NCBI GenBank assembly: GCA_030407315.1
Contig: JALQPE010002009.1
Location: 1 to 64,000 of the forward strand
Reading direction: 5' to 3'
Length of the DNA stretch: 64,000 nucleotides
Origin: Asparagopsis taxiformis
Lineage: Eukaryota; Rhodophyta; Florideophyceae; Bonnemaisoniales; Bonnemaisoniaceae
Below the pieces are notes generated by a model, which saw nothing but the letters and a program-made list of their open reading frames with translations, was not told the DNA's origin and did not search any database. Below, piece after piece: positions 29,454 through 64,000 of the stretch (positions within the stretch are counted from its first letter, which is position 1; every line of letters begins with the position of its first letter). A program made the translations under genes and the position numbers.

Positions 29454-29454
29454 T

Positions 29455-42063: not shown

Positions 42064-42520
42064 CACTACGGTGTTGAAAAGGGGGCCTCAGACAGTACGG
42101 TGAGACAGTGAATTTTACTGTCTGAGACAGTAAAAATCACTACTGAGTTTGAGATTAAAAAATGTAGTAAATTTACTCCCTGAGGCAGTAAAAAACACTG
42201 CCTGAGCAATTTGGTGCCTGAGGCAGTAAAATTACTATTTTAATTTTTTCAGTTCTAGTGGCGCAGACAGTAAAATACAAAATTTCCTGGCAGTACGGTA
42301 TGTAGCAGAATTCAGTACTGTACGATAGCAAATTCTAGTAATTTTTGCTGGTACCACAGGGCAGTAGTGCAATGCAGTGATTTTTGATGATTTTTGGAAT
42401 GGAATGTACTGCCATACAGTACTGCCCTGGCAAATGACCTGGCATTAGAATCAGGCAGTAAAATATACTGGCTCCGGCAGTGAATTGTACTGCCTGCAAG
42501 TACTGCCTTGATAGTAATTG
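42064..42520 (+). repeat. CACTA terminus and subterminal repeats (left end of element 2)
   Basis: It opens CACTACGGTGTTG and continues with GGCCTCAGACAGTACGG and repeated ACAGTAAAA/ACTGCC units of both orientations up to about 42520. The first 77 bp match the inverted end at 29453 with about two differences. Confidence 0.87.
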
Positions 42521-42828
42521 GTGATTGGTATTTTCTGAGATTCAATATTGCAATAGTTGTCCAGGATAGGGTTGTACAATGTGTTCGCATGTGAGTTCAA
42601 GTAGAGAAAAGAGGAAACTATTCTGAAGCTACTAGTAGTGAGAAGTGTAGAGGATGCATGGTCACATGGAAATGACCGTTACAAAAAGGTAGGAGAAAAT
42701 CGGTCGTTTTCCGAGGATATGAGTAGAGTAGTTGGCATTATTTGTTACTATTGCTAGCATTCTCGTTGCAGGAAAATCGTCTGGAGTGACACTTTGCAAT
42801 TGGAACGAGAGGCGAAGTTTGACGGAAG

Positions 42829-44352
42829 ATGGAATCTCAGCGTCGTGAGGAAAATCCAAATGACTGCCTAGCAGGGATTATTCGAGAGGGATTCAGGACA
42901 GTGACTGGGGAAGTTCGTCGTATTGGGGAGAGAATGGATGAAATCGACGATGATCGAACGTCCCAACGCCAGCAAATCGAAAAGCTGATGAGTCGCGTCG
43001 AGTTTATAGTAACGGAATTACAGGGTGTGAAAGACATCTATGATGGTTTATTACAGCAGAGTCAGGGCACTTCGAAGAAGGGGATGACTGACAAGGACAG
43101 GGACCGGTTGCGCATCTCGCAGTCAGCAGAACTATCGTTTTCTTACAATTTTCTGTGTGCAGTATTTGGAACTGTTGTACCTTTGCTGGTCGACAAGATT
43201 GATGCTGGGGCGACAATTTACACCAACCAAGGAATCTACGACCTCCGTGGGTGCAGGCTGCTCTCTGCAATGATGTTTGCGAAGCAGAGCAATGACAAGA
43301 GAGATGTGTTCCAATCCAACACCGGGAAGAACAACATCGAGCTTCGATTCCAAGTGGTGATGTCTCTCCTGCGGAGCATTCAGAAGGAAAAGTCGGGTAC
43401 AGGCCGTACAGTGGAAGGCTCGAGCTCTGGACGCGATTCGAATGCGTTCAACGTCTGGAAGGAGAACAAGTATATTCCGGACAAAATAATCGAAGAAGTT
43501 GTTTATGGTGCCACTGGCGATGGCCGAAACCAGCCTTCAGGAAGCATTGACGGAGGGGCTAGGAAGCGGAGGAAAACAGATGGAAATGGTGGACAGTTGA
43601 GCAAGCGTGAAATATCTTTGGCTGTTACGAAAGTTGCGCTGACAAAGGTGCTCGGTTTCCTGAACAAGTCTAGAGAGCAGGTGCGCCATCGATTCCTTGT
43701 CGAACTGGGGTTCGCTCTAGTGTTGGAAATGGACGCCTCTATCACTTTCAAGTTTCCAACTCACGGTCTCATTCGAGATATGGACGTTATCCCCGATACC
43801 CGTGTGACCAACGGAAATCTAAGGCCTGAGGAACGGAAAGTTGTGGATGACAAGAATTCCGAGATCATGGTAGAATTCATCACTGAGCGGAAAGAAATGG
43901 TTGTCATCATTCAGTAAGAAGTCGAGATATCGGGATGTGTGGCCAAAAGGATGATTCGAAGCAGAATCAATATCCTGGAGGTAGCCCTGAACACTGCAAT
44001 TGCTTTCCTTCAATGCACGAGTAGAACGGTTTTCCTGCGACGTTCCTGCAATTCACTCAGATTTGTCTATGCAATCGCTTCCGGGATTCTAGGAATTTTC
44101 AAGGTACAATCAGGTCAGACCTTCGAAGAAAGTGTACAAGACGAGCTCAAACAATTAGGAAAGGCGATGTTGCCGAGTGAGCGAATCTGTAAGAGGCATC
44201 TCTGCGAAGATGTACTGACAATTACTATCGAAAAATTCGATGAACAACACTTGGAACAGCGTATTACCGCGTTTGAGGAGGATAGCGGACATGGAAATGA
44301 AGAAGATGGGAGTGAAAGCTACGTTGAAGTTTTCCTTGATGAGGAAGATTGA
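42829..44352 (+). CDS. coiled-coil element protein 2, unknown function (one in-frame stop)
   Basis: ATG 42829 (MESQRREENPND). An N-terminal helix pair (residues 10-80, RIGERMDEIDDDRTSQRQQIEKLMS as heptads) is followed by a helical domain, then a Lys/Arg linker and SREQVRHRFLVELGF. The frame meets TAA at 43915. It stays open in the same frame to 44352, with a helical, acidic C-terminus (VEVFLDEED). The stop is most simply CAA changed to TAA. It is the family member matching 21307-23621. In both elements this gene reads away from the CACTA terminus. Confidence 0.65.
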
Positions 44353-44599
44353 TAATGGAAGCGCATAAGTAAAGTTTCATAACCTTTGAAGTAAAATAAT
44401 TACGACGAGGCAGACTTAGGAGAAATAGAAACCTTTTGATATGAAACTGTCTAGGATATGAGTGGAAAAGGTGCACCCTAGCATGCTACGTACTACCTGG
44501 TGTACTGGAAACAGTAGCTATCGTTCTTATTTTTCAGCTCACTCTGCGACTAGAAAGCGTCATGTCTACTACGGTTAAGAGTTTTACCCTGTCATTGAG

Positions 44600-44850
44600 C
44601 ACGCCTCTAGTACCTTCGGGGCCTGTGCAGTCCCATCCAATGCCGTAGCTCCACCTGGCAGAGTAGTGCGGAAAATAATACCGGGTATTATTTTGGGGAA
44701 TATTTTGCCAAGTGGAGGGCAATCATTCGTACCGACTACAAGCGATCCCTGGACGAAACCTAAGAATAATACCCGGTATTATTTTCAGGTATATTTTGCC
44801 AATGGAGGGCAATCATTGTTACAGAATGCAGACAGTCCCTGGACGAAGGA
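44600..44850. repeat. two fold-back units with AATAATACC/GGTATTATT cores
   Basis: Cores are at 44674-44692 and 44765-44783, each followed by TTGCCAA(G)TGGAGGGCAATCATT. They lie in the gap between the 3' ends of two convergent genes. Related units are at 50.8, 54.5 and 58.9 kb. Confidence 0.85.
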
Positions 44851-44959
44851 AGAGGCCAGAAAGATACGGAGCATGTATCGATGGATACCATTGACTTGAT
44901 CGAGGTTGACTAATTCTGAACAGTCGTGTAGACACATCTATAAAAGATAGAAAAAAGTT

Positions 44960-46347: not shown

Positions 46348-46764
46348 AATGGGTATTCCCAGGAAAAGAATGGAAGAGGTATCGACTGAGGAAACAGGAA
46401 AGATGACGAAACTGTACAGCTTGTATCCGTGTGGAATGATAGAGAGAAAATTGGTAGGTTACTATTTTTATACTTGCATAACTCGTAACGGTTATAAATT
46501 ACTAACAACTGTCCCAAGCGACATGGGAGACCAACATCGTGATGATCATCTCTCTTGAACATTCATCACCATATAATAAAGATCTTATTCCGAGCTGCTC
46601 GAAGCCATTACCAGTAGATTGGGTGTATTTTTCGCTGTGGCAATATAACGGAACCTAGACGTGTATGTATAAACAGACGCAGGGATCGAGAATGATGCAG
46701 TGAAATCAATGTGTATATTTATATACTGGTTGTAAGAACGAGTCTAAAAGTTCGAACAGAAGAT

Positions 46765-46836
46765 GAAGTCCTCTCAAGAGATTGGTTTTGAAATCTCCGA
46801 TGGCAGATTTCAAACTCAATCTCTCGAGGGGACTTC
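46765..46836. repeat. hairpin with 32-base arms between divergent genes
   Basis: GAAGTCCTCTCAAGAGATTG... pairs with ...CTCAATCTCTCGAGGGGACTTC with few mismatches and an 8-base loop. It lies between the starts of the genes at 46347 (-) and 47079 (+), the shared promoter region. Confidence 0.85.
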
Positions 46837-47078
46837 AAATTCAAAACAAAAATGGAAATGTCCGTTGGCGAAATAATTGTATTGAAAGGCCGCCGAAGAA
46901 CCTAATTATTCCTCATTGCGTACCCTACCTAGCCAAAGTATACCTGAAAATATTCAGGTTAACTCTTTAACTGTGCATTTAAGGTTTATCAAGATTGTTG
47001 CCGAAGGTATTTAACGGCAGGTAGGAGAGAAGATTGTTTTCTGCTGGTGGCTGATTGAGGTGAAGAATTTATTTCTCG

Positions 47079-48041
47079 ATGGCCTCTGAGAAGAGAAATC
47101 CAGAGAGCACCTCTCGGCGTCCCCTTCATGGTGAGCGGCGCAATGGGGTATTGCACATCGACCCATTCAAGATCAAAAGATATGTCGAGATTCGAGAAAT
47201 CGACTACAGGCACGTCGATGTTATTGCCGAGAGCATTCAGGTTTACGGCTACAATGACAACCCAATTACCAGTCGGATCATTGCCGGTGAGGTAGAGGTG
47301 CTGAATGGTGCGCATCGTTCGAAAGCTGTAATCAAGCTCATAGAGAACGGTGAGCTTCCGCGTGATTTCACTGTTCCTATGATTGAAGAAGAAGTCGACA
47401 TATCTCCGATTACAAGTGCTGCTTTCCTTCTAGATAGTGTGAAAGCATCAAACGCGAACGATATGGCATCCAGGCAGAAGAGGATGACTTTCATTGAGTG
47501 CCTGAATCTTACTTTGGATCTTAGAGATGGGTACTGGGAGCGAAACGCAGGTGAAAAACAAGGAAGCTCAAGCATGGTTACAATTCGCGACGTGAATATG
47601 CCATCTATTAGGCGATGGCTCGCCGTGGGATCTCAGCGCGAAGATTTGGCAGAAACTGTGCTGAGGCAGCCACAGTACGAGAGTTGCTTGTCAATTCTTC
47701 GTGTGCTTCGCCCCTACAGTCGCATAGAAGAACCCAATCCCAAAATGGTTCGCTGTCTGTGGCAGTTGTTCTGTATTGTATGGGGAAGGCCGGTGGAAGT
47801 TCAGATCAATTTTGCGATGAAGGAGTTTCCCACATCTCTCGAGAAAAGAGCATCAGTCGGCGAGCAGTTGTTTGGGATGTCTACAAGTGGTGAAATTGCT
47901 TCTCCATTGTGTCGCGAAGTCCTCACCTGTGAGTATTTTCGTTCTGGAAGAAGTGCACAGGGTAGAACATTAACAGAAGAAGACAAAGTATGTGGAAGGC
48001 TGATGTTTATGATTTCATTTTGTGCACATTGCCCTCACTAG
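47079..48041 (+). CDS. ParB-like domain, N-terminal part of ParB-methyltransferase-SET
   Basis: ATG 47079. VLNGAHRSKAV (NGAHR at residues 76-80) is the ParB/Srx core motif, preceded by RHVDVIAESIQVYGYNDNP, the usual strand-helix lead-in. About 220 mostly helical residues follow. The frame closes at 48041, 20 bp into the next frame, which opens with GTG, not ATG. One T fewer in the T4 run near 48019 would join them, so I read the two as one protein of about 1,165 residues. ParB domains bind or cut DNA and, in phage, accompany DNA methylases; here it probably recruits or positions the methyltransferase. Confidence 0.75.
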   Translation: MASEKRNPESTSRRPLHGERRNGVLHIDPFKIKRYVEIREIDYRHVDVIAESIQVYGYNDNPITSRIIAGEVEVLNGAHRSKAVIKLIENGELPRDFTVPMIEEEVDISPITSAAFLLDSVKASNANDMASRQKRMTFIECLNLTLDLRDGYWERNAGEKQGSSSMVTIRDVNMPSIRRWLAVGSQREDLAETVLRQPQYESCLSILRVLRPYSRIEEPNPKMVRCLWQLFCIVWGRPVEVQINFAMKEFPTSLEKRASVGEQLFGMSTSGEIASPLCREVLTCEYFRSGRSAQGRTLTEEDKVCGRLMFMISFCAHCPH

Positions 48042-50580
48042 ACGCAGAAATGCACCCATTCGCCGGGGTAGGAAGCGTCGTAGAACTGGGAGGGATACAG
48101 AGACTTCTACATTCGCCCCTTTCCAGCGCACAAGAGCAAACGGAGAGTCTGTGGGTGTCGTTTTGGAAAGGGTTATGTCTGCCTGGGATACAACAGCGAT
48201 GATTCTGGGCTTCGAAAGCGCCTACATGATGTGTCGCCCATACATGGTTTTCGACTCTGAGAAATTCCAATTCATCTGTCTTGCTAATCGTACTGACGGG
48301 TGGGCACATCCTGACCACTACTCAGATCTTCTGCTTCCGTCCCCGGTAGTGAAAGTCCGCGAGGATGCAGGTTATCCAGGCACTTTGGATATCTCTGTTG
48401 ATGCTAGGTTGAGGTCTTTGACAGAAGCCGTACTAGTGTCTGCGTATGACTGTATGACAGGCATTGATGTATTTGGATCAAGTACGAACCAGATGGAAGG
48501 GCTGCGCACTAAATTTTTCCATCAGCCTGACCGGTTCGGATTGAACGCTTTCATCGAAGCAAGAACTGAACAATCCATCGCATTGGATGGTCACGAAAGA
48601 CTCAAGGTATGGAAGAACTGGAACCGTGAAATGCGTGTGAAGCCAGTTGATATCTGCGACTTGAAAATTCTCTACGAGACTGAACAGCGCAACGCAGCAT
48701 CCAGATCTCTTTCTCGAGAAAGAGATCGTCTTGAGTCGAATGAATCAATGCAGCACAGCACTCGCCGTTTAGGTACAGGTGGAAGGAAACCTACCAATGA
48801 CTCTGGATCCCAGTATACATCCAGCATGGATGGGAGGGCTTCAATGGACACGGTTATGCAAGATGTTGCGGAGGATACACCGTCAGCGGAGGCAGTGGGT
48901 GAGGAAGAGGGGGTACCGGATCATATTGTGCAATTGAAAAAGGTCATGAAGAGATTTTGCGTGGCTTACAACTGTACAGCCTCGAGGTTAGTGCACCAGG
49001 TTAACACTGATTCCATTGGCATGCTTTCAGGGAATACTATTGATGGACAAGCACAACTTGTGCTCACCGATCCACCCTTCAACACGCAGAGGGAGAAAGG
49101 CAAGACCAATTCAGACTATGATGACATCAATAGCGCACAAATGTTCCGTACCGGAAAGGACATTTCTCGAATGCTGCGCCCTGGAGGACATGCCCTGATA
49201 TTTTCCAGTATCAAACAGTTGGTTGGGTGGGGAGAAGCTCTTCAAAATGCAGAAAGCGGGGAACAATCCATGCGTACAGACGATGTTCCTCTCATTCTAA
49301 GCCGTCGTCCCTACGTATTCATCCAAAACCCAATGAACAAATCGTGTTCATTACACAACATTCACGAGTTTACTGTGCACAGTTTCAAACGTGGGATGGG
49401 AGCTGCCGCGTTTGAAATGGTTGATTATTCTTTGCATAACCGTGACCTTTCACGACATCCAGGGTACGTGAACGCAATCGACAACTGCCCAAAGCTCGGA
49501 CCTGGTGAGTCATTGAACTTCGAAGACAAAAGGCTACGTGCGGAGCAGAAGCCTCTGTCCATACTTCGAGAGCTTATTTCAAGGTTTTCAAAGCCAGGAG
49601 ACATTGTGGTAGATCTATTCTCCGGAACGTATTCTACTGCAATAGCTTGCATGACAATGAGAGATGGTCTGTATCGCAAGTTTATTGGATGTGAAAAAGA
49701 CGCCACATGCCATGGATCAGCTCAGCCGTTGTTGCTGGATTGCTTTGTTAGGCAAGGTCGAGATGGAGTTTTTGGGGAGGCAACCAAAAATGACATATCG
49801 AGTATTCTCGCTAACAAAGAATGGAATTACTCGATAAGGAGCAATGTAGGAAGTGAAAGACTTCGACATCGAAGTGATGCGCCTGATGGATTCCCGTCGG
49901 TATCTTCACTACCACTGCATATGTTGCGATTTGTCTCCTCTGTTGCGCGGGATCAAAGCATGCTCCGAAGACTTGCCGAAGTCCCAATGAATGAATGGGG
50001 CGTAGAAGATTTAGGCAAGGTTTTCTCCGTTGACCCTGAGATGATGCTTGCAGTAGATGCCTCCTTTCACAACGTTATTGTTGTTGCATCGACAGTTCGA
50101 GAGGGAGGATTGGGGGTTTTTGCCGCAGAAGATTTAGAGAGGGGCTCTGTTGTTGGATGGTATAATGGGACAATTTTATACGGGAAGATTGGGGAGAATG
50201 AACCGCAACGCAGTCGCTTGTACGGACCGGACGGGTTCGGTTGTACTGGTGAAAGATTCCAAAACTTCAATATGGAGATGGAGACCAGTGTCATCGGAGA
50301 AGAAGCACCGGTCGATAAGATATATCTTGTATCAGCGGAATACAATGTCTGCAGCTACCTCAACGACAGTAGGACCATTGACGGAATGGAGAGAGTTGCA
50401 AATGTGCAACGCAGAAAAAATGCGGAGTTCCGAGTTCACAAAGACGTCAATCCTACTTGCGACTTCAAGTATGCAGTAGCAAAACCTGATCTCATCCTAG
50501 CACAGGTTGTAGTAGATGTTCGAGCTGGGGAAGAGATATTCGTTGACTATGGATTGCGCTACTGGACTGCAGAGAAGTAG
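48022..50580 (+). CDS. beta-class DNA methyltransferase fused to SET domain
   Basis: The 852-codon frame has a basic start (RRRNAPIRRGRKRRR), then a region shared with the 26.9-kb copy (YMVFDS). The catalytic motif DPPF is at residues 350-353, followed by a spacer that should hold the target-recognition part. The AdoMet motif GDIVVDLFSGT has its Asp at residue 531. DPPF before FSGT is the beta-class amino-methyltransferase order, giving N6-methyladenine or N4-methylcytosine. GGLGVFAAEDL (about 695), VCSYLND (about 775) and VRAGEEIFVDYG (about 835) are the SET landmarks. All motifs are intact. It is convergent with the ParB-dioxygenase gene at 51266, with hairpins between. Activity on DNA or histone is inferred from family only. 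Confidence 0.88.
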   Translation: MHIALTRRRNAPIRRGRKRRRTGRDTETSTFAPFQRTRANGESVGVVLERVMSAWDTTAMILGFESAYMMCRPYMVFDSEKFQFICLANRTDGWAHPDHYSDLLLPSPVVKVREDAGYPGTLDISVDARLRSLTEAVLVSAYDCMTGIDVFGSSTNQMEGLRTKFFHQPDRFGLNAFIEARTEQSIALDGHERLKVWKNWNREMRVKPVDICDLKILYETEQRNAASRSLSRERDRLESNESMQHSTRRLGTGGRKPTNDSGSQYTSSMDGRASMDTVMQDVAEDTPSAEAVGEEEGVPDHIVQLKKVMKRFCVAYNCTASRLVHQVNTDSIGMLSGNTIDGQAQLVLTDPPFNTQREKGKTNSDYDDINSAQMFRTGKDISRMLRPGGHALIFSSIKQLVGWGEALQNAESGEQSMRTDDVPLILSRRPYVFIQNPMNKSCSLHNIHEFTVHSFKRGMGAAAFEMVDYSLHNRDLSRHPGYVNAIDNCPKLGPGESLNFEDKRLRAEQKPLSILRELISRFSKPGDIVVDLFSGTYSTAIACMTMRDGLYRKFIGCEKDATCHGSAQPLLLDCFVRQGRDGVFGEATKNDISSILANKEWNYSIRSNVGSERLRHRSDAPDGFPSVSSLPLHMLRFVSSVARDQSMLRRLAEVPMNEWGVEDLGKVFSVDPEMMLAVDASFHNVIVVASTVREGGLGVFAAEDLERGSVVGWYNGTILYGKIGENEPQRSRLYGPDGFGCTGERFQNFNMEMETSVIGEEAPVDKIYLVSAEYNVCSYLNDSRTIDGMERVANVQRRKNAEFRVHKDVNPTCDFKYAVAKPDLILAQVVVDVRAGEEIFVDYGLRYWTAEK

Positions 50581-50728
50581 GACAGTTTAGGCGTCCAATT
50601 ACAGATATCAAGAGTACCATCAGCAATAAAAAGTCTTGCATCTGAACTCGTACAACGTTGTAATACTACAATCTACCTGAGCGATAATAACAGACTTTCA
50701 TTAGCTGAGCGGTGCGAGTCAGCCCACG

Positions 50729-50942
50729 CCCAATGATAGTGCTGCACCTGGGCTTTTCCATGCCAAAATAATACCGGGTATTATTTTGGCATGGCAAAGC
50801 CCAAGTGCAGCCACGTTATTGGCTGTCATGAACGCAGCGGCAGCCAATGGAATTGCTGCAACTGGGCTTTGCCATGCCAAAATAATACCCGGTATTATTT
50901 TGGGTGTGGCCAGCCCAAGTGCAGCTCTGCCATTGGCTGCCA
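50729..50942. repeat. two long hairpins with AATAATACC/GGTATTATT cores
   Basis: Cores at 50767-50785 and 50881-50899 are flanked by matching arms of CCAATGG/CAGCC, CTGGGCTTTGCCATGCC and their complements, about 45 bases per arm. They fill the gap between convergent 3' ends. Confidence 0.9.
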
Positions 50943-51265: not shown

Positions 51266-53182
51266 TTATCGCGCACTAGGTGCATCCCAGTAGTTGACTG
51301 TTTCGATAGCATCCGCCAATTCTTCTTCGTCACTTAAAAGGTAGAGATGAGAACGAACCGGAAGACCATATGTTAGGCGATTTTCCGCTGAACTACTGAA
51401 TCCTTTGCCTCCATGGTAGAAGTCACCACGACCGATGAAGAGAGAATACGGTGGCACGTAGATGTCCATAACAGGCGTCTTGTACTTCTCAGCGTCTGCA
51501 CGCGTCAAACAGACGTGGCTGAAATACGCTCCACGAAGCCAGAACCCATCAGCCGCGCTTGCCATCAGAAAGTACGATCTTCCAGGTGGGAAATCGGAAT
51601 CATTGATGACCACCGGTAGGTCTGTGTGCAAGTCTTGATCTGGAGCACCATCAGAGGTCAGCAAAAGACGTAAACCGGTTTTAGGAAAGGCCACAGGCTC
51701 ATGGATTCCTAGGCCCAAGTACATTAGCTCGGCACAGATTGCTTTGCCGACCTCGAGAATCATCTTGTTCTTGAATTGATGTTCATCCATCTGCTCGAGA
51801 TCGTCGCAAATCTTCTTCCTTGAGATAGAGAACCTTCCCAAACGAGAGGCCTGTTGCTCTGCTGTTACCTCACCCTTGTTTCGAATCTGATGCCAGGGAT
51901 CATTGGAACTGTCTTCAGCAGAAGAATGAACAGGTTTGAACTTCTGGGCGTAGAACGTGAACAGTTCATGTGCTGCGTTGCCCACAGTCGAAGAACGGAA
52001 GATACCACTGAGTACATGGGCACCCAAGAGATTGAGAGTTGACCTAGCTGTTGCAAAGAACTTCTCTGCACAGCAAGCTGGACCACTGCACGCTATACAA
52101 TTCATATCGGCAGCAGCTGCACTCAAAATCTCCTGTCGGATTGTTTCGTACAGCTTGCTGTCGATATAGTACTTGACCCTAGAGTCTGACGGTATGGTGT
52201 TCGGGAGGATATCCATAATCCGTTCATCGACTACCCTGTCGGGGAGGGGATTTTCTTGCTCATCGCTGAACAATGGAATCTCTTCCGTTGAACGTTTCAC
52301 TTCGAGTCTTCTGCGCTTCGGAAGGGGCTCTTCGGACTCTTCTTCTACCTCCGACTCTGCCTGACTGTCGCCGCCAACCCGTAGACTCTCCGTTCTCTGC
52401 CGTTTCGACCTGCGAAGTGTCTCGACTGGCTCATTCACCGCAAGCGGTGGTGCATTGAGAGGGAGACGGAGGAGAACAGATCCCAATTGCTTCTCAGAAC
52501 CTGCCACAGTGGCATCAGGGGTTCCTTGAGCCTGCTCAACTGCAGGAACGGAAGTGGCAGGAGCAGGAGGGGTGGAAGGGGCAGGAACGGAAGTGGCAGG
52601 AGGAGGAGGGGTAGTAGGAGCAGGAGTAGAAGGAGTAGAAGGGGTAGAATGAGCACGAGGAGCAGGAGGGGTAGAAGGGGCAGGAGGAGTAGGACCAGAA
52701 CGGGTAGAACGGGTTGAATGGGTAGAAGGCTCATCTGATTGGGGCGTAGATGGCTTCGGCGCATCTTCAGATGGCTGTTCATTGTGAACAATGACCCTTT
52801 GGTCTTCTTCCATGTCCACAACGCCCGTGGAAAAGCGAAGCTGCTCATACATTTCGTCGGAGACGAGAGCATGCTTCGTACCGCTGTTGTCGTCGGTATT
52901 GAAGTGCAGGAGGGTCTCCGCGATACTGTTCGCAATGACAGTCTCCTTTCCTGACCCAGTATTCTTGAGCTCGGAGTAGAAATGCTCGAGCGGAGGCTCC
53001 ATCATTTTATGAGCAGCAACCGGCTCAGACATCTTGAACACTTCAATTAAAACACGAACGAAAGGACTACCAAATCCTCTTGTCGTCCTGCTCAACTGGC
53101 GCAGATCTCTCATGCGAGTCCAGAGAGCTGTGATCAGCAAGATGGAAGTCTGCCATGAATACGAGATCCATGTTGCAGCCAT
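51266..53182 (-). CDS. 2OG/Fe(II) dioxygenase-like part of ParB-dioxygenase 2
   Basis: The frame is the C-terminal part of the gene starting at 54053. It begins with the last helices of the ParB half, then a Pro/Thr/Ser/Ala-rich linker (about 52470-52740, low complexity) and a basic stretch. A conserved helical region follows (RVKYYIDSKLYETIRQEI), then the dioxygenase fold. HTD lies around residue 517, SYFLMASAADGFWL follows, and the distal His is in DFYHGGKGF around residue 589. RVKYYI...KL and SHVCL are shared with the 55089 gene. Fe(II)/2-oxoglutarate enzymes of this fold oxidise bases, proteins or small molecules; a base substrate is a guess from context. Stop TAA. Confidence 0.75.
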   Translation of the reverse strand: MAATWISYSWQTSILLITALWTRMRDLRQLSRTTRGFGSPFVRVLIEVFKMSEPVAAHKMMEPPLEHFYSELKNTGSGKETVIANSIAETLLHFNTDDNSGTKHALVSDEMYEQLRFSTGVVDMEEDQRVIVHNEQPSEDAPKPSTPQSDEPSTHSTRSTRSGPTPPAPSTPPAPRAHSTPSTPSTPAPTTPPPPATSVPAPSTPPAPATSVPAVEQAQGTPDATVAGSEKQLGSVLLRLPLNAPPLAVNEPVETLRRSKRQRTESLRVGGDSQAESEVEEESEEPLPKRRRLEVKRSTEEIPLFSDEQENPLPDRVVDERIMDILPNTIPSDSRVKYYIDSKLYETIRQEILSAAAADMNCIACSGPACCAEKFFATARSTLNLLGAHVLSGIFRSSTVGNAAHELFTFYAQKFKPVHSSAEDSSNDPWHQIRNKGEVTAEQQASRLGRFSISRKKICDDLEQMDEHQFKNKMILEVGKAICAELMYLGLGIHEPVAFPKTGLRLLLTSDGAPDQDLHTDLPVVINDSDFPPGRSYFLMASAADGFWLRGAYFSHVCLTRADAEKYKTPVMDIYVPPYSLFIGRGDFYHGGKGFSSSAENRLTYGLPVRSHLYLLSDEEELADAIETVNYWDAPSAR

Positions 53183-54053
53183 ACATGTCTACGGACTGCT
53201 TGAAGACATCGTCGTTGATGTCACGGCCTTCTTTAACTGCCCTTTCCTGTTCCGCAGCGAGAATTTCCTTGGTGAACATGCTCAGTACGGAACTCCAGAA
53301 CTCAAGCGCTTTGTTGTTCACAGTCCGGAAGCCTTTCGCAGCAGTCACGTGCTTGTTGATGGCTTGGTAGCCCAGTTTCGATATCGACAACTGGCTGTCC
53401 ATGATGACCTGAATGCACTTCCGATTCGGTTCACCCAGCATGTCCTTGGTCGTGAGCAGTTGGACCACAGAACACACTCGGTCTGCCAAAGAAACAAGGG
53501 CAACATCATGTGTGAGTGTGTTTGCTTGACTGGACAGCCCGAGTACTTCAAGAGGTGTGAAGTACTCATCGGAGACTTCTTCTGTCCCTGGGCGCCTGAT
53601 CAAAGCCACATCGATGTTCCTGAATGAAGCAGCATACGGATGTTGCCCTTCCGGGTCTTCACGAATGCACTTCTGGAGAGCCGCAACGCGATGGCCACCA
53701 TCGATGTAGAACGTTTGAAGGGTGGGGGTTGTGCTGCCTTCACTAGGAAGGAGCATTTTGCAGGCAAGGATTCGGGAGATTGAGGAGGTGAATCCTTCCC
53801 TCAGGAACTTCTCCTTCAGCTCAAGCACTCTCCCTTCCCTAATATGACGAGAGAATAGGGGAGGTCTGTGCAAATCCAAGGGAGACAGCCTGTGGTCAGC
53901 TTTGGGACAGTCTGACAACTGAACCTCGGCGGTGACAGAGTTATCGTGACCAGGGCTGCGAGAAGGGGCGCGAGAGCGAGCGGAGGCCCGACCGCGAGTC
54001 GAAGCGCGAGCAGGGGCGGGGGCAGAGGGTTTGGAGCGAGTGCGAGGAGCCAT
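53067..54053 (-). CDS. ParB-like part of ParB-dioxygenase 2
   Basis: ATG 54053. A basic, Ser/Ala/Arg-rich start (MAPRTRSKPSAPAPA) precedes IDGGHRVAAL at residue 117. IRRPGTEEV...FTPLEVLGLSSQANTLTHDV follows, the segment conserved among all ParB-dioxygenase copies. The frame runs out at 53067 inside the region that aligns with the start of the 53182 frame, so one base change near 53140 splits what was one gene (54053-51266, about 930 codons). Confidence 0.75.
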   Translation of the reverse strand: MAPRTRSKPSAPAPARASTRGRASARSRAPSRSPGHDNSVTAEVQLSDCPKADHRLSPLDLHRPPLFSRHIREGRVLELKEKFLREGFTSSISRILACKMLLPSEGSTTPTLQTFYIDGGHRVAALQKCIREDPEGQHPYAASFRNIDVALIRRPGTEEVSDEYFTPLEVLGLSSQANTLTHDVALVSLADRVCSVVQLLTTKDMLGEPNRKCIQVIMDSQLSISKLGYQAINKHVTAAKGFRTVNNKALEFWSSVLSMFTKEILAAEQERAVKEGRDINDDVFKQSVDMYGCNMDLVFMADFHLADHSSLDSHERSAPVEQDDKRIW

Positions 54054-54483: not shown

Positions 54484-54770
54484 GCCAATGAGTGCACTGC
54501 ACCTGGCTTGAGAAACTAGGAATAATACCCGGTATTATTTTGGCCTCCCAAACGCCAGGTGCACCAACGCCATTGGCCGAGGTTGTCCAGACTACCACCG
54601 GCCAATGGGTTGGTGCACTTGGTCTATACCGACCCAAAATAATACCGGTATTATTTTGGCCTCCCAAAAGCCAGGTGCACCAACGCCATTGGCTGAGGTT
54701 ATCCGGAGTACCCCCAGGCAATGGGGTTGGTGCACTTGGTCTACACCCACCCAACTTTATACCCGGCCAG
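54484..54770. repeat. two hairpins with AATAATACC/GGTATTATT cores
   Basis: Cores at 54521-54539 and 54638-54655 (the second a perfect 18-mer) are flanked by GCCAATG, GTGCAC and CCTCCCAAA arms. A third, worn unit follows near 54720-54770. They lie between two tandem ParB-dioxygenase genes. Confidence 0.9.
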
Positions 54771-55088: not shown

Positions 55089-58000
55089 TCACTTCAATTT
55101 CGAATTGCCCTCCCAATGTCCAACGACATATTCTCCTTCTTCACTTTGACGCTGCTCAGTTTTGAGGAATATGTGAGATCGGATCGGGAACTTGTATTGA
55201 AGACCCTTATCGCTCTCAAAGCCTTCCTCGTGGTGATAAACATCCCCTCGGCAGACAAGAACAGAATATGGTGGTACTTCACACCTCTTCATTGGAACTC
55301 TGTATAACTCTCTGTTGGGATGTGATAAACAGACATGACTGTAGGGTGCAAGCACGAGGCCGAATCCATCTGCGCCGCTTGACATCATGAAGTAGGATGG
55401 CGGAGAAGGGGGACTGTTAACTTCATCGATTCCCACTTCATAGTCTGTATGTCCAGCACGAGGTTTAGTCCGCTCTCCAGTCAGCACTAAAGTAGTTCCA
55501 GTGCTGGGGAAGGCCATCGGGTCCTTCCCACTAGTCCTCAATTCCAAACCTTCCGCACAAATACCTAGACCGAGCTCAACAATCATCTTCTTCCGATAGA
55601 GATTATTATTGTTATCCTCGAGGTCATCACATAAGCTCTTCCGCTTTGTTATAAAGATTCCTCTGCCCTTCTCACCTTCTTCATCAGAGTTTTTCCCATC
55701 CATCATAGCCATGCACCACGGTGTCCAGTCCGGATCTCTGCGGGTGTCACCGGATTCAGAGTTCTTCTTGGCATCCTCGAGACGTTCCTCAAACAACGCA
55801 GAAAAATGAAGGAGCAGTTCGTGGATCGCATCTGCAGTAGTAGAAGACTTGAATATTCCGTCCAGAATTGTAAACCCAACCAAGTCTATTTCATTTCGTT
55901 TCTCTCGGAAATAAGCCCTCGAGAGAAACTCAGCGGAAACATTTTGTGCCGAATAGGCACTCGCTGCTGCTTCAGCGACCTCGGCTCGAAGCGTATCGAC
56001 CAGTTTCCCATTCACATAGTATTTCATTCGACTGTCGGGATGAATGATAACAGGCAGTTTCGCTTCTATACCTTCCTCCACATCTTTGTCAGGGACATCA
56101 TTTTGTTGCCTGTCCGAATACTGACCTCCTTGAACCGCGTGGACTGCAGCGTCTTTGCCGGATTGCAAATTTGCGTCTTCACGCATCTTTTGCTTCTTCT
56201 TCTGCCGCGGCCTGCTGGTATCCTCTCCCACCAGGTCAATAACCTCTTGAGGGGTGACATCCACCAATTTCCGTTTGGATCGTAGAATCATTGGCGGCGT
56301 CTCCGTATTCCTCGGCTTTGCCTTTAAGGGCACGAAACCACTGCTGTGCTTGGCTTTCATCAACTTCCTAGGCGTAGAACTGGTAACAGGTGTTTCCGTG
56401 TCCTCCAGCTCAGGTAAAACAGGTAGGCCGACATCCGCTGTAGATAACATAGCGTCTCCAGTGCCATCACCCTGATTTCGTACACCTTTCATCGGGTCCT
56501 CCGTTGTCCTTCCAGAAGAATGTTCGGGACATTCTTCGCGGACATCTTTCGTTCCAGACCCATCGCTCTTCCTAGATTCAGGACCTCCTTCACCATCTCG
56601 ACCAGTTCTTGGATGACCAACTGACATATTCGCCGGCGACTTTCCACCCTGCTCTGGTCTGAGCGTGGCACTTCCGGCTGCCACTGGGCTAGGTGGTTGT
56701 TGCAGGTCATTTTCATCACCGTGGTCATTTCTTCCTCGATTTGCACCAGTTGGTTCAAGCTCTTGAGTTCCTACGTTCTTCTGCAACACATCCCCAACTT
56801 CACAATCTCCAGGTTTCGAAGAATTGTTCTCGGTAGGCGCAGTAGGCACTGCGCGGTCCGTTGTAACCTGCTTTGCGCTTTCGGAATCTGCCGCTTTCCC
56901 TGTCGCCTCTTCACCAACCTGTGTTGCAGCACCGACCTCAGCGTTAACACGATCCGATATTTCCAGACTGCCCTGTGTCTGCTGTTGGGTAAGTACATTT
57001 GGACTCTGTACCACGTCCGAGCGATCAATGGCAGCATTTGAAGTATCACCATACGATGCGGATTGTTGTCGTGGTCGAGGTGCAGTATTCCCTTCCAAGG
57101 ATTTTCGCCTAGTCCGCCTTTCCTGCACACCTATTTCAGGCGCGACGGAATGGTCGAGAGAGTCATCCGATAGAATTGGGCCGTTGAAAACCACATAACG
57201 GATTTCTTTCATCATAGACCGCGTCAATGCTGCACGTATACCTCTCCCAGTTGGTGCGTCGGAAGGATAGAAATCTTTGAGGACAGTCAAAATGCGATAT
57301 CGTATGGTTTTTCGTGTTCGTCCACCTGGCTCCGGTACTTCATGTAACTTCCTGAAACATGGATGAGGTGAGGAATGCCAGGAGTTTTCTTTCCGTACAG
57401 CTTTCTCAAGTATGTCATATATTTCACACATGCTGTAGCACCACTTTTGCGCGCATGTCTTTAGACTTATACCACCATCTCCTTTCCTACGTTTCCACAT
57501 CGTCCACATTGCAGTGAGCTCTAGAATGACAAGTTTGGTGTCCACCGAAGCTTTTCGAAACGCAGAAGCGAATAGGACGTCCACAGTGCATCCCTGCATA
57601 TTCTTCGAGTCTGGCGGACTAGTTTCAGTTGCAAATCGACTTGGGATAGCTGACCAATGTTCGAACGCCGGGTTATTTACGTCTCCGAAGCCCTGCGCAA
57701 TCGAAACGTACTTCATCATAATTCCTTCCTGACAACCTGGAATGACCTTGTTCTCGACTACAACTTTTGTGCACACATTTACCTTCGCCTTCATCAAGCC
57801 CTTCATCATCATGAACTTCATGACCGTACAGACGTGGTCAGCAATAGAAACTTCTATCACGTCATGAGTCTTTTCGTTCAGCTTCTGCGATATTCGCATC
57901 ACTTCAAGAGGATGAAACATTTCACGGGTTCCAGGTGGTCGGATGAAGTCAACGCTAATGCTCCTCAGTCTCCATCGATCAGCAACTGTCGGTTTGTTTT

Positions 58001-58613
58001 CCACAATCGACTGCAAAGCGCTGATACGATGACCTCCATCAATGCACTGCAGTTTCTTCCGTCCGTCTGACCCCATTGTTTCACAGATGGTCATTCGGGT
58101 GCCAGTTTCCAGAAACCCCTCGGTAGATATTTTGCTGACCAGATCGCGCACTCTGGCCTCCTGCACAAGACGAGAAGTTGATTCCGGTTTGGCAACATCT
58201 AGCGGATTGATCATTTTAGGTTCAGTCCTGCATTCGACAATGTTGATGTCAATCCCCATCACAGACTCTTCTGATGCTTCCATGCCAGCAGGACTCCCCT
58301 CGCCTTCACGGACGTTAGACCTCTCCCTGTTTTTCGATTTCACCGTCCCAGGAGTAGATGGAAAGCGTAGAGTGTTTTTCCCAGATGGTGATATATCGCC
58401 AAGGGTTTTTGCTGCCTCTATCATGGCAGCGTCTGCTCCCTGAATGGGTGTCTGGCTATCTGCCGTCTCCCTTCCCGCTGCAGACGGAGCCCCTCCATCA
58501 GCAGAACCTCCGGAGGGTGTTTTATCACCGCCTACCGTCGTTGCAAGTCTCTCTGCAACGCTTTCGACGGTATCCTTTGGTTCCGCAGCGCGCTCAGTGT
58601 CGCTTCCGGCCAT
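55089..58613 (-). CDS. intact ParB-2OG/Fe(II) dioxygenase fusion protein (copy 3)
   Basis: A single 1,174-codon frame from ATG 58613 to TGA. The order is: Ser/Gly-rich start; ParB core IDGGHRISAL at residue 191; FIRPPGTREMFHPLEVMRISQ; a helical region to about 450; a long disordered, acidic linker (about 500-830); a helical block (SRMKYYVNGKLVDTLRAE). The dioxygenase domain follows, with H1055-T-D1057, SYFMMSSGADGFGL, His pair 1127-1128 and R near 1145. These are the expected metal and 2-oxoglutarate residues of the double-stranded beta-helix fold. The TET/JBP, phytanoyl and other branches share this pattern, and I cannot place it by eye. Neighbour genes are another copy and the transposase, all on minus. 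It is the best-preserved member and defines the architecture. Confidence 0.87.
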   Translation of the reverse strand: MAGSDTERAAEPKDTVESVAERLATTVGGDKTPSGGSADGGAPSAAGRETADSQTPIQGADAAMIEAAKTLGDISPSGKNTLRFPSTPGTVKSKNRERSNVREGEGSPAGMEASEESVMGIDINIVECRTEPKMINPLDVAKPESTSRLVQEARVRDLVSKISTEGFLETGTRMTICETMGSDGRKKLQCIDGGHRISALQSIVENKPTVADRWRLRSISVDFIRPPGTREMFHPLEVMRISQKLNEKTHDVIEVSIADHVCTVMKFMMMKGLMKAKVNVCTKVVVENKVIPGCQEGIMMKYVSIAQGFGDVNNPAFEHWSAIPSRFATETSPPDSKNMQGCTVDVLFASAFRKASVDTKLVILELTAMWTMWKRRKGDGGISLKTCAQKWCYSMCEIYDILEKAVRKENSWHSSPHPCFRKLHEVPEPGGRTRKTIRYRILTVLKDFYPSDAPTGRGIRAALTRSMMKEIRYVVFNGPILSDDSLDHSVAPEIGVQERRTRRKSLEGNTAPRPRQQSASYGDTSNAAIDRSDVVQSPNVLTQQQTQGSLEISDRVNAEVGAATQVGEEATGKAADSESAKQVTTDRAVPTAPTENNSSKPGDCEVGDVLQKNVGTQELEPTGANRGRNDHGDENDLQQPPSPVAAGSATLRPEQGGKSPANMSVGHPRTGRDGEGGPESRKSDGSGTKDVREECPEHSSGRTTEDPMKGVRNQGDGTGDAMLSTADVGLPVLPELEDTETPVTSSTPRKLMKAKHSSGFVPLKAKPRNTETPPMILRSKRKLVDVTPQEVIDLVGEDTSRPRQKKKQKMREDANLQSGKDAAVHAVQGGQYSDRQQNDVPDKDVEEGIEAKLPVIIHPDSRMKYYVNGKLVDTLRAEVAEAAASAYSAQNVSAEFLSRAYFREKRNEIDLVGFTILDGIFKSSTTADAIHELLLHFSALFEERLEDAKKNSESGDTRRDPDWTPWCMAMMDGKNSDEEGEKGRGIFITKRKSLCDDLEDNNNNLYRKKMIVELGLGICAEGLELRTSGKDPMAFPSTGTTLVLTGERTKPRAGHTDYEVGIDEVNSPPSPPSYFMMSSGADGFGLVLAPYSHVCLSHPNRELYRVPMKRCEVPPYSVLVCRGDVYHHEEGFESDKGLQYKFPIRSHIFLKTEQRQSEEGEYVVGHWEGNSKLK

Positions 58614-58965: not shown

Positions 58966-59215
58966 ACTCAACTTTGTGGAACTAGGAGTCCTGCAACTCG
59001 CGGCTCCATCTCTAGTACCAATGGCGTCATACGTACGTAAGTGCGTACGCTCTTCGCAAAACACACTTTATTTGTGCGCATGGAACAAAAGCCCACTCTA
59101 TTCTTCAAACGACATGTACAAATTTTGTATAGCATTTGTTGGAAGACTTGATCAGGACTGCTGCTAAATGAATTACGAAAGTTTACTGATGTATTAAACA
59201 CTGTGCTGGAACACT

Positions 59216-62200
59216 CTATGCTGAACGTGGTGGGTATCCATCTTCTCTAGTTAAGACGCTCACTTCACCACCAGAAAGAATATCACTATTGTGCTCTACA
59301 ATGCCACTTTGTCTATCGTATGAACAAACTCCTGACTCGCAGTTATGTACGTGCAAAACTTCTCGGACCCCGTCGTTCATTTCAACGTGAACTATAGTAT
59401 CATTCCCACCTTTCCGGTACATACCGTCTCCAGTGCATGTCAAGGGAATGCAGACAGCATATGGAGTTTTCTGCTTCCATTTCTTTGCCTTCTTCTCCTC
59501 TCCTTGCCCTACCACAATAAAAAAGGACAATGTGACGAAAAGGACACGTCTAGAACATGTGAATTCCTCCATGCTCGTCCTGCTATGGGCGGGTACTACT
59601 ATACCAGCATCATACCATCCATCTTTGCACACTGCTTGAATGATGCTTCCAGGTTCAGCACGCCCTAACCTCGATTCGCTCTCAGATCCCTCATGACTAG
59701 TGCGCACTCTTTGTGCAGCAGTGAGCCACCATAGTCGTTCACCATGTTGAGACCCGTTTACCTGTCTGGTTCTGAGAAAAGTTTCAGAAGCTTTACGTAT
59801 CCTTGCCATCATGACGGTTTCTTCTGCCGGAACATTTTTCGCGTCTTCAACAGATTCCCCTCGCCACCGCGTGATTGGACAGTGGGTGCTCACCATAGTA
59901 CTGCTCCTCTCTGATATGAGATGGAATACAGGACTTAAGAAGCATCTTTTTGCTGCCTCTTCTGTCGCATGTGGACTCTCCGAAATTCCTTTTCCTAGTG
60001 CAAAATACACGCGTCTGCAATCGGCAGACGTCCATTGTTTTGTATTGTGACCTACCGCACCCAGCGTGATGGCTATTCGTGCGAGCCAGTCATCGGCCAT
60101 GATGAGCTCCATTGATGACAGATGTTCATTCTTATGGTTCGAGTTTCGAACCCCTCTTTTAAGAGGCTGGTGCATTCTCTCGAATAAAAGCTCTTCCACA
60201 TGTTTCGCAGCTCCAAAAGCTGGTAATGTATGTACGCAAAATTCTATCAACCGATGCAAGTTCGGTTTGTCCAGATGTTTCATTGCAATAGGATCCTTCT
60301 TGCATACCTCATGCAGTTCTTTCATATAGTCTGAAACAAGAGCTAGAATGTGGTCATGGCGTCCGCCATTCTCGGCCTCGAACCTCCTGGTTGACTCAAG
60401 TCCATCTATCCACCATGTTGGGATGAATCGAATGCTGGCAACAACCATTTGAAACTTTTTCAGCAAACGAAGAATACGTTCAAGTTTTTCATACCCGTCC
60501 CAAGAGTTCCCGATGACGATACGAAATGCCGAATAAAATGCTTGGGGAGCTACAACGAGAACAGCGAATATATCGCTCATGTTCATCGATAATAGGTAGT
60601 TCTGCCCGAATACCTGACTCTGACTACTCAAACAGAACATTCGGAGGGTATTCAGTAGAACTGTTTCCGCAACATTTCGAATTACAGGTGTTGCTGCAGT
60701 GATTGTCGCATTCATCACATCTTGAGCCAGTCCGGAGAGCAGATGGTCTGGGGCAACTACAGCAGAGCGATATGGATCGAATTGACAAGGAACAACTGGA
60801 ACTCCTTCTTCGTTTGTAGGAACTCCTCTCCGCACACGATTAAGGGATTCACTCAAATTATGGAGTGCCTTATTCTCAATCGGATCTAGGCTTAGTCCAA
60901 GAACTTTGAGCTGATCTTGCGATGCGACTTCCCTCACAAGCTTGTTTCGGTGCATTCCTCGGGCATGCGTACTCATCTGACTGTTTAGCAATGCTGTGTA
61001 TGCATTTCGTGAACCTCCACTGCTGCTCATATCTTGCTTTTCGAAAATGCAGCTATGGCATGGTGTATTACTGGTGTGTCCACGGACATCCAGAGTATGC
61101 GAAACAGCTGGGTAATCTCCGATAAATCCAACAGGATCCAGGAATATGACCACGTCTTCTCCATTTGCATCTTTCGCTGGAAAACCGTCTGTACTTCCCT
61201 TCACAATGTCGGGTACAACTCTCTCAATTACAACATTTGTTGAAACTCCCGGGGGAACGAATCCAAGAACGCGGACTGCGTGGAAGCTTGCTCTCTTGCT
61301 TGGCTGTATGCCTAATGGAAGCATATAGCAGCCACCAAAACTTCCTTTCCGGCTTGTGAACGGCTGGAAGTCATCAGCATATAGCAGAAATCGGTATACG
61401 ATATATTTCCTGCCATCTGAAAGATTCCCCTCACTGCAGGCATCCATACGTTTAGAGCCGGGGTGCCATCTAGACCTCTTGTCTGGAGCTCCTATGAGCT
61501 GGACGTCTTTCACCCGAATTTGTTCGCGATGTAGCTGCCCAGTTGCTCCCCTTGTGGAGCAAATGAGAAAAGTCGCATGTTCAGAGCGTCCCTTTTTCAG
61601 ATGTCTGTTCACGAGTAGTAACTCTTCAAATGTGCTCCCATCAGACTTACTTTTTGGCCGAAACAGAGTGATAGCGTCACCTGCCCGAATATCATTGTTG
61701 CAATGTTCTCCGTCGAGCGTTGTGGTGGAGACGACACGCCTCGCATTTCTTTTCTCAGTTTCTTCCATTGCATCGATTTGCGGGCCTATCACATCTTCCA
61801 TATTTGATTCTTGTTGTTCTTCTCCGGTTGCAAGATAACTTGCAATGATGATAGCTTCAATTCTCCAGTCACTCCTTGCTGCTGCAAAACTTCTTCTGCT
61901 CCTAGAATTCTTTCCAGTTTCGATGTTCTTTCCCTGTTTCGTTCTGGCTCCTCCCAGCTTAGCCACCAGGGCCTCTTGATTTGTCGTCGGCATACATATG
62001 ATCCTCAACTCGTCTCCATGTCGGGCGTATACCTTTCTGTGCATCTTGTGACCGTCATGATCTGATGCACTTACCGAAATGCGATGGAATGGGTCATTCA
62101 GAACAGCTGAACGGCATTTGACAATGAAAGAGTTTTCAATACTTTCTGAAGCAATTTGATATGCTTCATCTTCTCTTTCATCACTATTATCCCTTTTACT

Positions 62201-62921
62201 AGACTTTATGCAGTCCAGAATGGGTCCGGTCTGTATATCCCTTTCCGCCCATGTGCTCGGTAGCACGACTCGTACCGATGTAGTACAATGAGCTCTACGG
62301 CTACTAGACAGTCCTGGAGACATCTTTCCAAGCCTAGAGCCGCTTTTTGTTACATCTATTTCACACGTTGTATCCATGCTTTGTGGGAAACATGTTTTCA
62401 GAATGAACGGTAAAATGACTTTCCTCATGTACGAGTCGCTAGGTGCTTGATCCGAAATGTCCCGCTTGAAATTAGACATCTCACGCATACCTTCATAGTC
62501 CTTGCGTTTCATCCGTAGCGTTCCACTAAGCAATATTATTGCAGAGAATACTGGCCAGGTCAGCAGTTTATCCACAAGTCCGCGGTCATCTTCCGCTGCC
62601 TCTTCTCCGTCGTGGTCATCACAGCTCTCGGCCGAGCTTTCCTCAGAGCCTATCGTTTCTTCTTCTCTGGTAACTTTTCCAGCCTCAAAAAATCCAATGT
62701 GCTCTTCTCCATTGCCACTAGAAATATTCTCGTCTTCAGCAGATGCTTTTCCGACGTTTTCGTCCGGTATATCGGCGTGAACCTCTCGAATGTTTCGTTC
62801 GAAACTAGCGGGTTTCCCCATTTTCGTGCCTTGTCCCACTTTCGTATGGGATTGACAATGATTCAAACCTTCTCCGGGTTCTTCGAGGTGTACCTTTCTT
62901 CCGAACAGCTGTTCGTTTCAT
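59216..62921 (-). CDS. CACTA/KDZ-type transposase copy B (nearly intact)
   Basis: ATG 62921 opens MKRTAVRKKGTPRR. An A-run one base shorter than in copy A near 62818 breaks the first 40 codons from the 1,216-codon frame (62866-59216), which itself opens with TTG. Acidic N-terminus; then LLYADDFQPF and GFVPPGVSTNVVIERVVPD; a GDYPAVSHTLD...CHSCIFEK zinc pair; DHLLSGLAQDVMNA; and KHVEELLFERMHQPLKRG. The C-terminus is Tudor-like (GSIIQAVCKDGWYDAGIVV). LYADDFNPF-type and GxPPG-type segments are typical of CACTA (Tnp2) transposases, and the end sequence CACTA agrees. With the KDZ/Plavaka-like marks in copy 1, I assign the wider group only. Confidence 0.8.
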
Positions 62922-64000
62922 CTCTTCTCTTTGGATTCGAGAGAACCTTGCACAAATTGTGGATTAGTGTCAACTAGTAGGCAACTAATAAGATGGTATC
63001 CGTCTCTTTTTAACCAGGCCACTGTAATAGTTTATGGTACCTATATTTTCTTACCGTTACATCTTATCGAAAACTTCACACTGACTAGTGTCCTACCTAA
63101 CTCAAGGAACAGGTGACTTGATTTCCCATGTTGGGTTCTTCAGCGAGCTTTAATGCCTCCAACGATTCCTGCTTCCTTTTCTGAATGAAATACACGAATC
63201 ATTTACAATTTAGCTTCAGTACATGGTATAATAGGCCTCAATAGTAATCTTGTTATGGTAATAAACTATATATAGATGAGAACACGGTTGCAATTCTCTT
63301 TCGGATTGTCTACTACTCTAATTTACAGCATTTATTCGATGTTTCTCCTTCAGTATGCAGCTAAACATCATTACCAAGACTTTTAGGTTGGTTTGACATT
63401 TCGTAGGGGCATGATTTCTATTTCTGCTAATTTATCACGTCCAGAAAATTTGACAGATCATCCGCTGCCACATCATCGTCTGCCAAATCATCTGCCTTCC
63501 AGTTACGACGAGGTCATTATGAGTGGATGAGCTGTCTATTTAAGGCTGTTGATGCGCGACGTATAGGACCATTTCATCATCCGGTATCATGAAGATGACA
63601 GGTAAGGCTGGTACGTTGTCGAGTAGGTATCTTTCCCCTCTCTCATTTCTTTCCACATGCTTTCCATGAAAGATAGTGCACTAACCATAAATATCGTTTT
63701 CGCTGATCCTATTCTAGTCTATTGATTGCAAATGATTCTGGCATAGGTATTGGTTGTAGGTTGGAATGACGAAAGCTTGCAAGCTTTCGTCATTCCAACC
63801 TACAACCAATACCTTTGCACGCAAAAATAGTTCAATGATGGTAAGTTTGTTCATTCCATTCATACTCATGTTCTTCTCATCCTTTACAATACTTTTCTAT
63901 ATCCGATTGCTAACCTGTTGCAAATCATCTGTAATGGTGTTTATTGCCCTCCTGTCTGAACATCACATGTATTTTGAAACAGCAAGGAACTCGATTTGCT
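60908..64000 (-). repeat. right arm of the long inverted repeat
   Basis: It matches 38957-42063 inverted at about 98% and continues past the window edge. The arm covers the 5' half of the transposase, its upstream region and the 70-bp palindrome. 62922-64000 holds no gene. Confidence 0.93.
63745..63814. repeat. perfect 70-bp palindrome
   Basis: Two 35-base arms match without mismatch around AAGCTTG|CAAGCTT. The centre is at 63779/63780. It lies about 820 bp upstream of the transposase ATG. Confidence 0.97.

Follow-up and report, generated by a model that had tools for sequence, protein, structure and literature searches.

Fungal DNA transposons carrying TET/JBP genes have been described, and their oxygenase was proposed to counter silencing (Kojima 2025, PMC12730594). 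As presented in the relevant sections of that paper, some of them have CAC..GTG ends or Plavaka-type transposases together with the oxygenase gene; TET/JBP is discussed there with 5-methylcytosine (5mC), and these sections do not mention ParB. One sentence of the same source refers to SET genes in HarbingerS and oomycete MuDR elements, DNA transposons with a SET histone-methyltransferase gene, and that sentence names neither a DNA methyltransferase nor a ParB fusion. Retrotransposons with cytosine-C5 DNA methyltransferases occur in dinoflagellates and charophytes (PMC5890265, part cited here). Fusions of ParB with adenine methylases are an established prokaryotic and phage architecture, with ParB followed by an N6_N4-type methylase bearing the TDPP[FY]N motif (PMC5512222, part cited here). 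The Plavaka giant repeats of Amoebidium carry a tyrosine recombinase as cargo, and section 7 of PMC11244446 gives no writer set of the kind described below. We analyzed a stretch of 64,000 nucleotides from the red alga Asparagopsis taxiformis (the window; positions 1 to 64,000 of contig JALQPE010002009.1, here C1883, 64,926 bases), which contains a copy of a 23.7-kb CACTA-like DNA transposon with genes for a transposase, a ParB–DNA methyltransferase–SET protein and two two-part proteins (PD1 and PD2), each with a ParB-like and a dioxygenase-like part.

In contrast to the fungal TET/JBP transposons, this element gave no TET/JBP match, carries a methyltransferase-SET gene and resides in a host where no C5 methyltransferase was found. 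The algal elements with a DNA methyltransferase are retroelements with cytosine-C5 enzymes, whereas here a DNA transposon carries an enzyme predicted to be adenine-type and phage-like. The phage and bacterial fusions share the order of ParB and methylase, but the matches in five viral and six prokaryotic loci never reach the SET part. A literature search over titles and abstract starts, mostly of open-access papers, returned no element combining ParB, an adenine-type DNA methyltransferase and SET.

Termini, target duplications and copies of the element

The element begins at position 42138 with CACTACTGAG. The left sides of four other copies were compared with the window; three align only from 42136–42138 and have unrelated flanks beyond it, and the compared piece of the fourth stops short of the element end. 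Genome-wide, the left terminus CACTACTGAGTTTGAGAT was found 256 times when up to one mismatch was allowed, and the right terminus CACTACTGTGTCTGAAATCGGGC 326 times when up to two were; neither reversed control had a match. The right end, ...CAGACACAGTAGTG, is absent from the window contig and present in other copies. All five copies with both ends have inverted ends starting with CACTA, CACTACTGAG...CACAGTAGTG, and all five with both flanks have target duplications of 2 bp (AT, CA, AA, CA, and TG). This sample consists of C1931, C2115, C2576, C753, and C605, the last with a right flank of only three bases; the left end of a sixth copy, C2830, lies outside the compared piece. The copy C2115:16128-39875 is 23,748 bp long with CA on either side. 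A homologous unoccupied site for the C2576 copy is present in the window at 26875/26876. In C2115, GGCAGT/ACTGCC is concentrated at the ends, with 13 occurrences in the first 500 bp and 22 in the last 1,248 bp against only 8 in total over the 44 interior windows of 500 bp. Subterminal repeat arrays are typical of CACTA elements. Taken together, the termini, duplications, and copy structure indicate cut-and-paste mobility. The encoded transposase, tentative in its family, is presumably the mobilizing enzyme.

The 2-bp duplications differ from the 3-bp duplication of CACTA/EnSpm and from the 8-bp duplication stated for Zisupton, and the ends, CACTACTG, differ from the Plavaka termini TGT..ACA or CATCA..TGATG (PMC12730594, classification passages). 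Membership in KDZ, with which the first-pass annotation had compared the element, is ruled out by the 2-bp instead of 8-bp duplications, and the CTC duplication that it expected was replaced by the five dinucleotides given above. The transposase gave no Pfam match at E ≤ 10. By blastp, it matched the Plavaka-type transposase at 18623-21229 of the window with 2e-4 over 153 residues, including CxxC.

C2115 is a nearly intact copy: its acc1, acc2, and ParB-methyltransferase-SET genes encode 507, 462, and 1169 amino acids (aa), PD2 and the transposase gene 1174 and 1233 aa, and PD1 is split between frames of 474 and 316 aa. The window copy has frame breaks in acc1, PD1, and the methyltransferase-SET gene, of which acc1 and the methyltransferase-SET gene are intact in other copies. 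An intron in the methyltransferase-SET gene was ruled out, as 40 scored copies form one open frame.

Copies were scored in the assembly (141.5 Mb, 3,156 contigs) among the best candidates only, so the counts are lower bounds and silent on the unscored remainder. At least 38 transposase genes (best of 2233 candidates) were open with 99–100% identity, most over residues 23–1216 of 1216. At least 40 methyltransferase-SET genes (best of 3780) were open, all with an identity rounding to 100%, and at least 39 PD2 genes (best of 4475) were 99–100% identical, stop-free in 38. These 117 genes are spread over 72 contigs, and linkage was counted on contigs with partner genes. The methyltransferase-SET and transposase genes lie on opposite strands, 8.6–9.9 kb apart, in 15 of 15 shared contigs; PD2 adjoins the transposase gene in 25/25 and faces the methyltransferase-SET gene in 16/16. 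All three were found on 12 contigs in a single arrangement. An extra pairing of PD2 and transposase, 15.5 kb apart, was seen on C1931, a contig with two transposase copies. The linked occurrence of the genes proposed in the first-pass annotation was thus borne out, as were the presence, from 42.8 to 62.9 kb, of a transposase-like gene, a methyltransferase-SET gene, and another two genes of two-part build, and the view of a mobile CACTA-ended element that co-mobilizes a ParB-fused adenine-type methyltransferase-SET gene with two ParB-like two-part genes.

The methyltransferase-SET and PD proteins

In Pfam, the methyltransferase-SET protein matched N6_N4_Mtase (2.2e-14) and SET (1.3e-5; 26 bits vs. 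a cut-off of 22.4), with no ParB match. Homologue searches in the protein database gave four proteins: P0001 and P0002, which differ at 2 residues from the protein of C2115 and at 6 of 1155 from that of C64, P0003 (31% identity), and P0004, which is one residue away from PD2 of C2115. Among PHROGs, methyltransferases matched down to 2.1e-23, and the ParB-like partition family phrog_1033 matched at 6.2e-5 in P0001 and at 0.003 in P0002; an unnamed family covered the same stretch at 1.6e-6. The preceding part of the protein has both a ParB/sulfiredoxin-type profile match and a GxHR-type signature. The best PDB chains, DpnA, CcrM, and MboIIA, matched weakly (7.6e-4 to 7.4e-3), and KMT2 SET domains gave 0.1–0.5.

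The N6_N4_Mtase profile is accompanied by DPPF/Y before an FxGT motif, the arrangement of beta-class N6-adenine methyltransferases, and the TDPPFN and FSGT/FAGT motifs were present in three of three aligned members. The TDPPFN/FSGT pattern, which we take to favor adenine-N6 over cytosine-N4, points to a methyltransferase of the adenine-N6 type. A viral scan yielded five loci whose matches cover the methyltransferase stretch and what precedes it. In one of them (L036), the open reading frame (ORF), delimited by eye, encodes a ParB-methylase of 435 aa with no room for SET. The six loci of a prokaryote scan matched within residues 631–877, and tblastn in phages returned one methyltransferase match for P0001.

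R, V, G, and GxHR are common to the N parts of the PD proteins (five of five PD-type rows) and the ParB in the methyltransferase gene; no ParB profile match was obtained for PD1 or PD2. In the C parts, HxD and SH are present in 6/6 members, the distal H in 5/6 (absent in L021), and the following R in 4/6 (absent in L017). The claim of ParB-dioxygenase fusions made in the first-pass annotation stands at the level of motifs (GxHR in 5/5 PD-type rows, HxD in 6/6) and fails at that of profile matches. Profile searches upheld its methyltransferase and SET assignments and the ParB module that belongs to the methyltransferase gene; they did not uphold the oxygenase part or the ParB part of the PD proteins. 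TET/JBP identity of the oxygenase-like part was dropped for lack of a profile match. Neither a viral scan with the dioxygenase profile nor tblastn in phages with the left dioxygenase-like ORF gave a match.

A diverged relative of the element, C64:3-19326, has CACTACGGTG ends with AT on either side (its left flank has only two bases). It carries acc1 (40% identity), an acc2 fragment, an intact methyltransferase-SET gene of 1155 aa (43%), and a ParB-dioxygenase-like gene of 1215 aa (35–41%); the identity of its gene set to the first is 35–45% overall. On the reverse strand at C64:13864-16752 (L017:3867-6752), an in-frame ORF of 962 aa joins transposase residues 2–696 to a dioxygenase-like domain. 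Between the methyltransferase-SET genes of C2115 and C64, the proportion of synonymous differences (pS) was 0.80 and saturated, so that a dN/dS ratio is not calculable. The proportion of nonsynonymous differences (pN) was 0.283 in the methyltransferase, 0.300 in SET, 0.366 in ParB, 0.415–0.441 in the linkers, and 0.557 in the low-complexity part. Lower pN under synonymous saturation is compatible with purifying selection that acts most strongly on the methyltransferase and SET.

Neighboring repeats and nested insertions

The features of the window are listed below.

Coordinates of the element, its genes and the adjacent features in the window
Position	Strand	Feature	Basis or remark
18623..33881	.	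Second fragmentary gene set	
18623-21229	+	Plavaka transposase	Pfam Plavaka 2.2e-22
27558-24348	-	Methyltransferase-SET relative	N6_N4_Mtase 7.6e-11; tblastn to P0001 residues 307-1078
29444-29453		CACTACGGTG-type end	
30432-33881	+	ParB-like and dioxygenase-like ORFs	
38625..42063	+	Remnant of second copy of the same element	Inverted repeats I1-I5, 98-100%
42064..42137	+	End fragment of a different CACTACGGTG family, within a transposase gene copy, outside the element	Repeat match
42138..42640	+	True left terminus CACTACTGAGTTTGAGAT and left subterminal GGCAGT/ACTGCC array	Genome-wide end count, copy C2115
42829..44352	+	acc1, function unassigned	Two ORFs here; 40% identical partner in C64
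44960..46084	-	acc2, function unassigned	374 aa here
47079..50580	+	ParB - DNA methyltransferase (predicted N6-adenine type) - SET gene	Two ORFs here
50724..50936	.	Intergenic repeat with palindrome, akin to 54521-54766	Repeat comparison
51266..54053	-	PD1, ParB-like N part and dioxygenase-like C part	Frame-broken here and at a different position in C2115
54521..54766	.	116-bp repeat, 2.1 copies, upstream of PD1	
55089..58613	-	PD2, intact, 1174 aa; ParB-like N part (GxHR) and dioxygenase-like C part (HxD...H...R)	
59216..62866	-	Transposase	1216 aa here
62867..64000	-	Region upstream of transposase	Right terminus absent

The first-pass annotation had placed the start of the element at 42064. 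The CACTACGGTG found there is indeed the end of an abundant repeat (1018 and 996 exact genomic places vs. 107 and 118 for the reversed control), but not of this element; as a start it was ruled out, three other copies beginning at 42136–42138. The 74 bases of 42064-42137 match the inverted end at 29375-29453 with 97%. The predicted CAACACCGTAGTG end belongs to the other family, and the right terminus of the element is absent from the contig.

The insertion at 42064 interrupts the transposase gene of the second element copy at residue 653, where the other family's end fragment sits, so that the window contains nested insertions. Two transposase copies stop at CACTACGGTG-type termini, one at 42063 of the window (residue about 653) and the other at C64:38840 (residue about 641), and this nearly identical stopping place may reflect a preferred target inside the transposase gene. 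The contig stretch C73:9001-17066 (L023) has the same junction as the window at 42064 and the same flank as at 29453, at a spacing of about 6.1 kb vs. 12.6 kb in the window; it is perhaps the other haplotype. On C21 and C101, CACTACGGTG ends of the A and B types stand at a spacing of about 14.5 kb, and the idea that they bound one simple element was rejected, their flanks being without duplication; C4 and C116 have too little left flank for this comparison of end pairs.

Homology of the window copy to all four other copies compared ends at contig position 64336. The same GC-rich sequence, at C1883:64337-64926 and to the left of 38625, breaks both element copies at the same position, which is explained either by a common subfamily insertion or by an inverted duplication of the locus.

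The repeat at 50724-50936 is 76–80% identical to a 118-bp unit present in about eight tandem copies in the derivative C605 (L045:4151-5102). The repeats beside PD1 contain the palindrome AATAATACCCGGTATTATT, and these palindromic repeats are a possible candidate for a protein-binding cis site. A near-perfect palindrome of 77 nt lies upstream of the transposase gene in both copies (39145-39221 and 63742-63818). In the methyltransferase-SET relative of the second gene set, the SET part was not found by Pfam. At 1428-8351, the window has Ty3/gypsy-type ORFs, judged by eye (gag-, reverse transcriptase-, integrase-, and chromodomain-like).

Possible role of the encoded enzymes

On balance, we lean towards reading the element as autonomous and recently active, a cut-and-paste transposon within the wider CACTA/Plavaka (CMC-type) group that has a chromatin-marking kit of its own. 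The near-identical copies indicate recent spread. In this scheme, the ParB modules would hold the enzymes on element DNA, either at the GGCAGT/ACTGCC arrays or at the palindromic repeats beside PD1. The methyltransferase would place N6-methyladenine (6mA) on element copies, and the SET domain would methylate histones nearby. The oxygenase-like proteins would then act on a mark by oxidation, possibly stripping off or modifying the methyl group of the adenine. Overall, this would amount to a self-directed epigenetic switch that keeps copies competent for transposition or times it.

The enzymes most likely mark the element's own copies with 6mA and histone methylation, judging from the ParB-like parts in both the writer and the oxygenase-like genes, the family-specific arrays, and the genes being kept together. 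In the host genome, whose 13 phycobilisome-linker matches and 10 light-harvesting-protein matches over the cut-off point to a red alga, an exon-by-exon search gave no match to a C5-cytosine methyltransferase; the controls were positive in 10 of 14, all prokaryote genomes. MT-A70 had no match in the host, nor in the controls. As no host C5 methyltransferase was found in this search, a 5mC-eraser role for the oxygenase-like proteins is unlikely and was dropped, and their targets are more probably the element's own adenine mark, another base or a protein. A fuller version of the proposal, a closed reversible epigenetic circuit with a ParB-guided 6mA and histone writer, a ParB-guided oxygenase as eraser or converter, a host without C5 methylation, and ParB reading the subterminal repeats, is rather speculative and less probable than the element-with-kit reading.

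Several observations weigh against a self-marking autonomous element. Among the first 100 of the 256 left ends, the expected distance from the left end to the methyltransferase-SET gene (4.85–4.95 kb) was found in five of eight contigs and not in the other three; that to the transposase gene was about 17 kb in three of seven, about 24 kb in two, and neither in two. Two shorter derivatives, C753 of about 15.1 kb and C605 of about 12.2 kb, retain both ends. They still have acc1, which in C753 is broken into pieces, together with fragments of acc2 and an N-terminal remnant (52–56%) of the methyltransferase-SET gene; neither yielded a transposase, and their interior is mostly other sequence. Since these derivatives carry 2-bp duplications without the transposase or enzyme genes, the kit is not needed in cis. 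The CACTACGGTG-type stretch C64:23292-38829 has a transposase, pieces of methyltransferase-SET, acc2, and acc1, and it showed no PD match and no matching duplication in its flanks. ParB modules elsewhere may be nucleases or NTPases instead of targeting parts (PMC5512222, part cited here).

The remaining points on this side concern the PD proteins, which are dioxygenase-like in their motifs and which we judge likely to be true 2-oxoglutarate (2OG) enzymes. They could instead be transposition accessory proteins, DNA-binding and of a different or diverged fold, a possibility that we consider worth keeping although not probable. None of the six members had a Pfam family at E ≤ 10, TET/JBP included, and no 2OG match was obtained for this part in NCBIfam, PHROGs, or PDB. 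One of the six matched an unrelated NCBIfam tRNA methyltransferase model (0.0055); the other weak matches, likewise unrelated, were phrog_7379 (function unassigned; 0.012) and TetR-type PDB chains (≥1.1). Two of the residues expected of an oxygenase are incomplete, the distal H being missing in L021 and the 2OG-binding R conserved in only 4/6 rows, with L017 among those lacking it. In hhalign against the host PhyH, the probability was 1.6, and only the PxSH motif was paired, with PGSH. Two of six members beat shuffled sequences in alignment to PhyH (2 and 29 of 2000) and four did not; of these two, the higher-scoring member is aligned only from the PxSH region onward and the other from HxD. 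AlphaFold models on alignments of three sequences were unusable (predicted local distance difference test, pLDDT, 37 and 31). What speaks against accessory proteins is the constancy of HxD and SH in 6/6 and of the distal H in 5/6, together with the pairing of the PxSH-like motif with the PGSH of PhyH, low as its probability is.

Self-restraint, in which the 6mA and SET marks silence the element at high copy number as a copy-number brake, appears unlikely to us. SET and DNA methylation are classic silencing marks, and many near-identical copies would yield much enzyme. However, that near-identity points to recent spread, and eukaryotic 6mA has been linked to permissive chromatin where studied (PMC12695648, part cited here). 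It is improbable that the enzymes serve as a weapon acting on other transposon families or host genes. Rivals are abundant, with 2014 exact CACTACGGTG sites that are mostly other-family ends (control 225), and element copies insert into each other, but the subterminal repeats differ by family, GGCAGT here vs. GACAGT (by eye) in the other, which suggests recognition of the own family. Passive capture of a phage- or virus-derived cluster riding on the transposon without a role is hardly to be expected either, phage-like as the ParB-methylase is, given full-length genes open despite synonymous saturation with lower nonsynonymous change, a related gene order in diverged elements, and no viral hallmark among eight window proteins in Pfam.

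The near-identical intact genes of the transposon make a long-read examination of 6mA over its copies practical. If the enzymes work, DNA base and histone marking would be coupled in a single protein, and a transposon, not a host enzyme, would be the source of adenine methylation in a eukaryotic genome. The arms race over transposon silencing would then involve a second chemistry, outside the fungal 5mC/TET theme.

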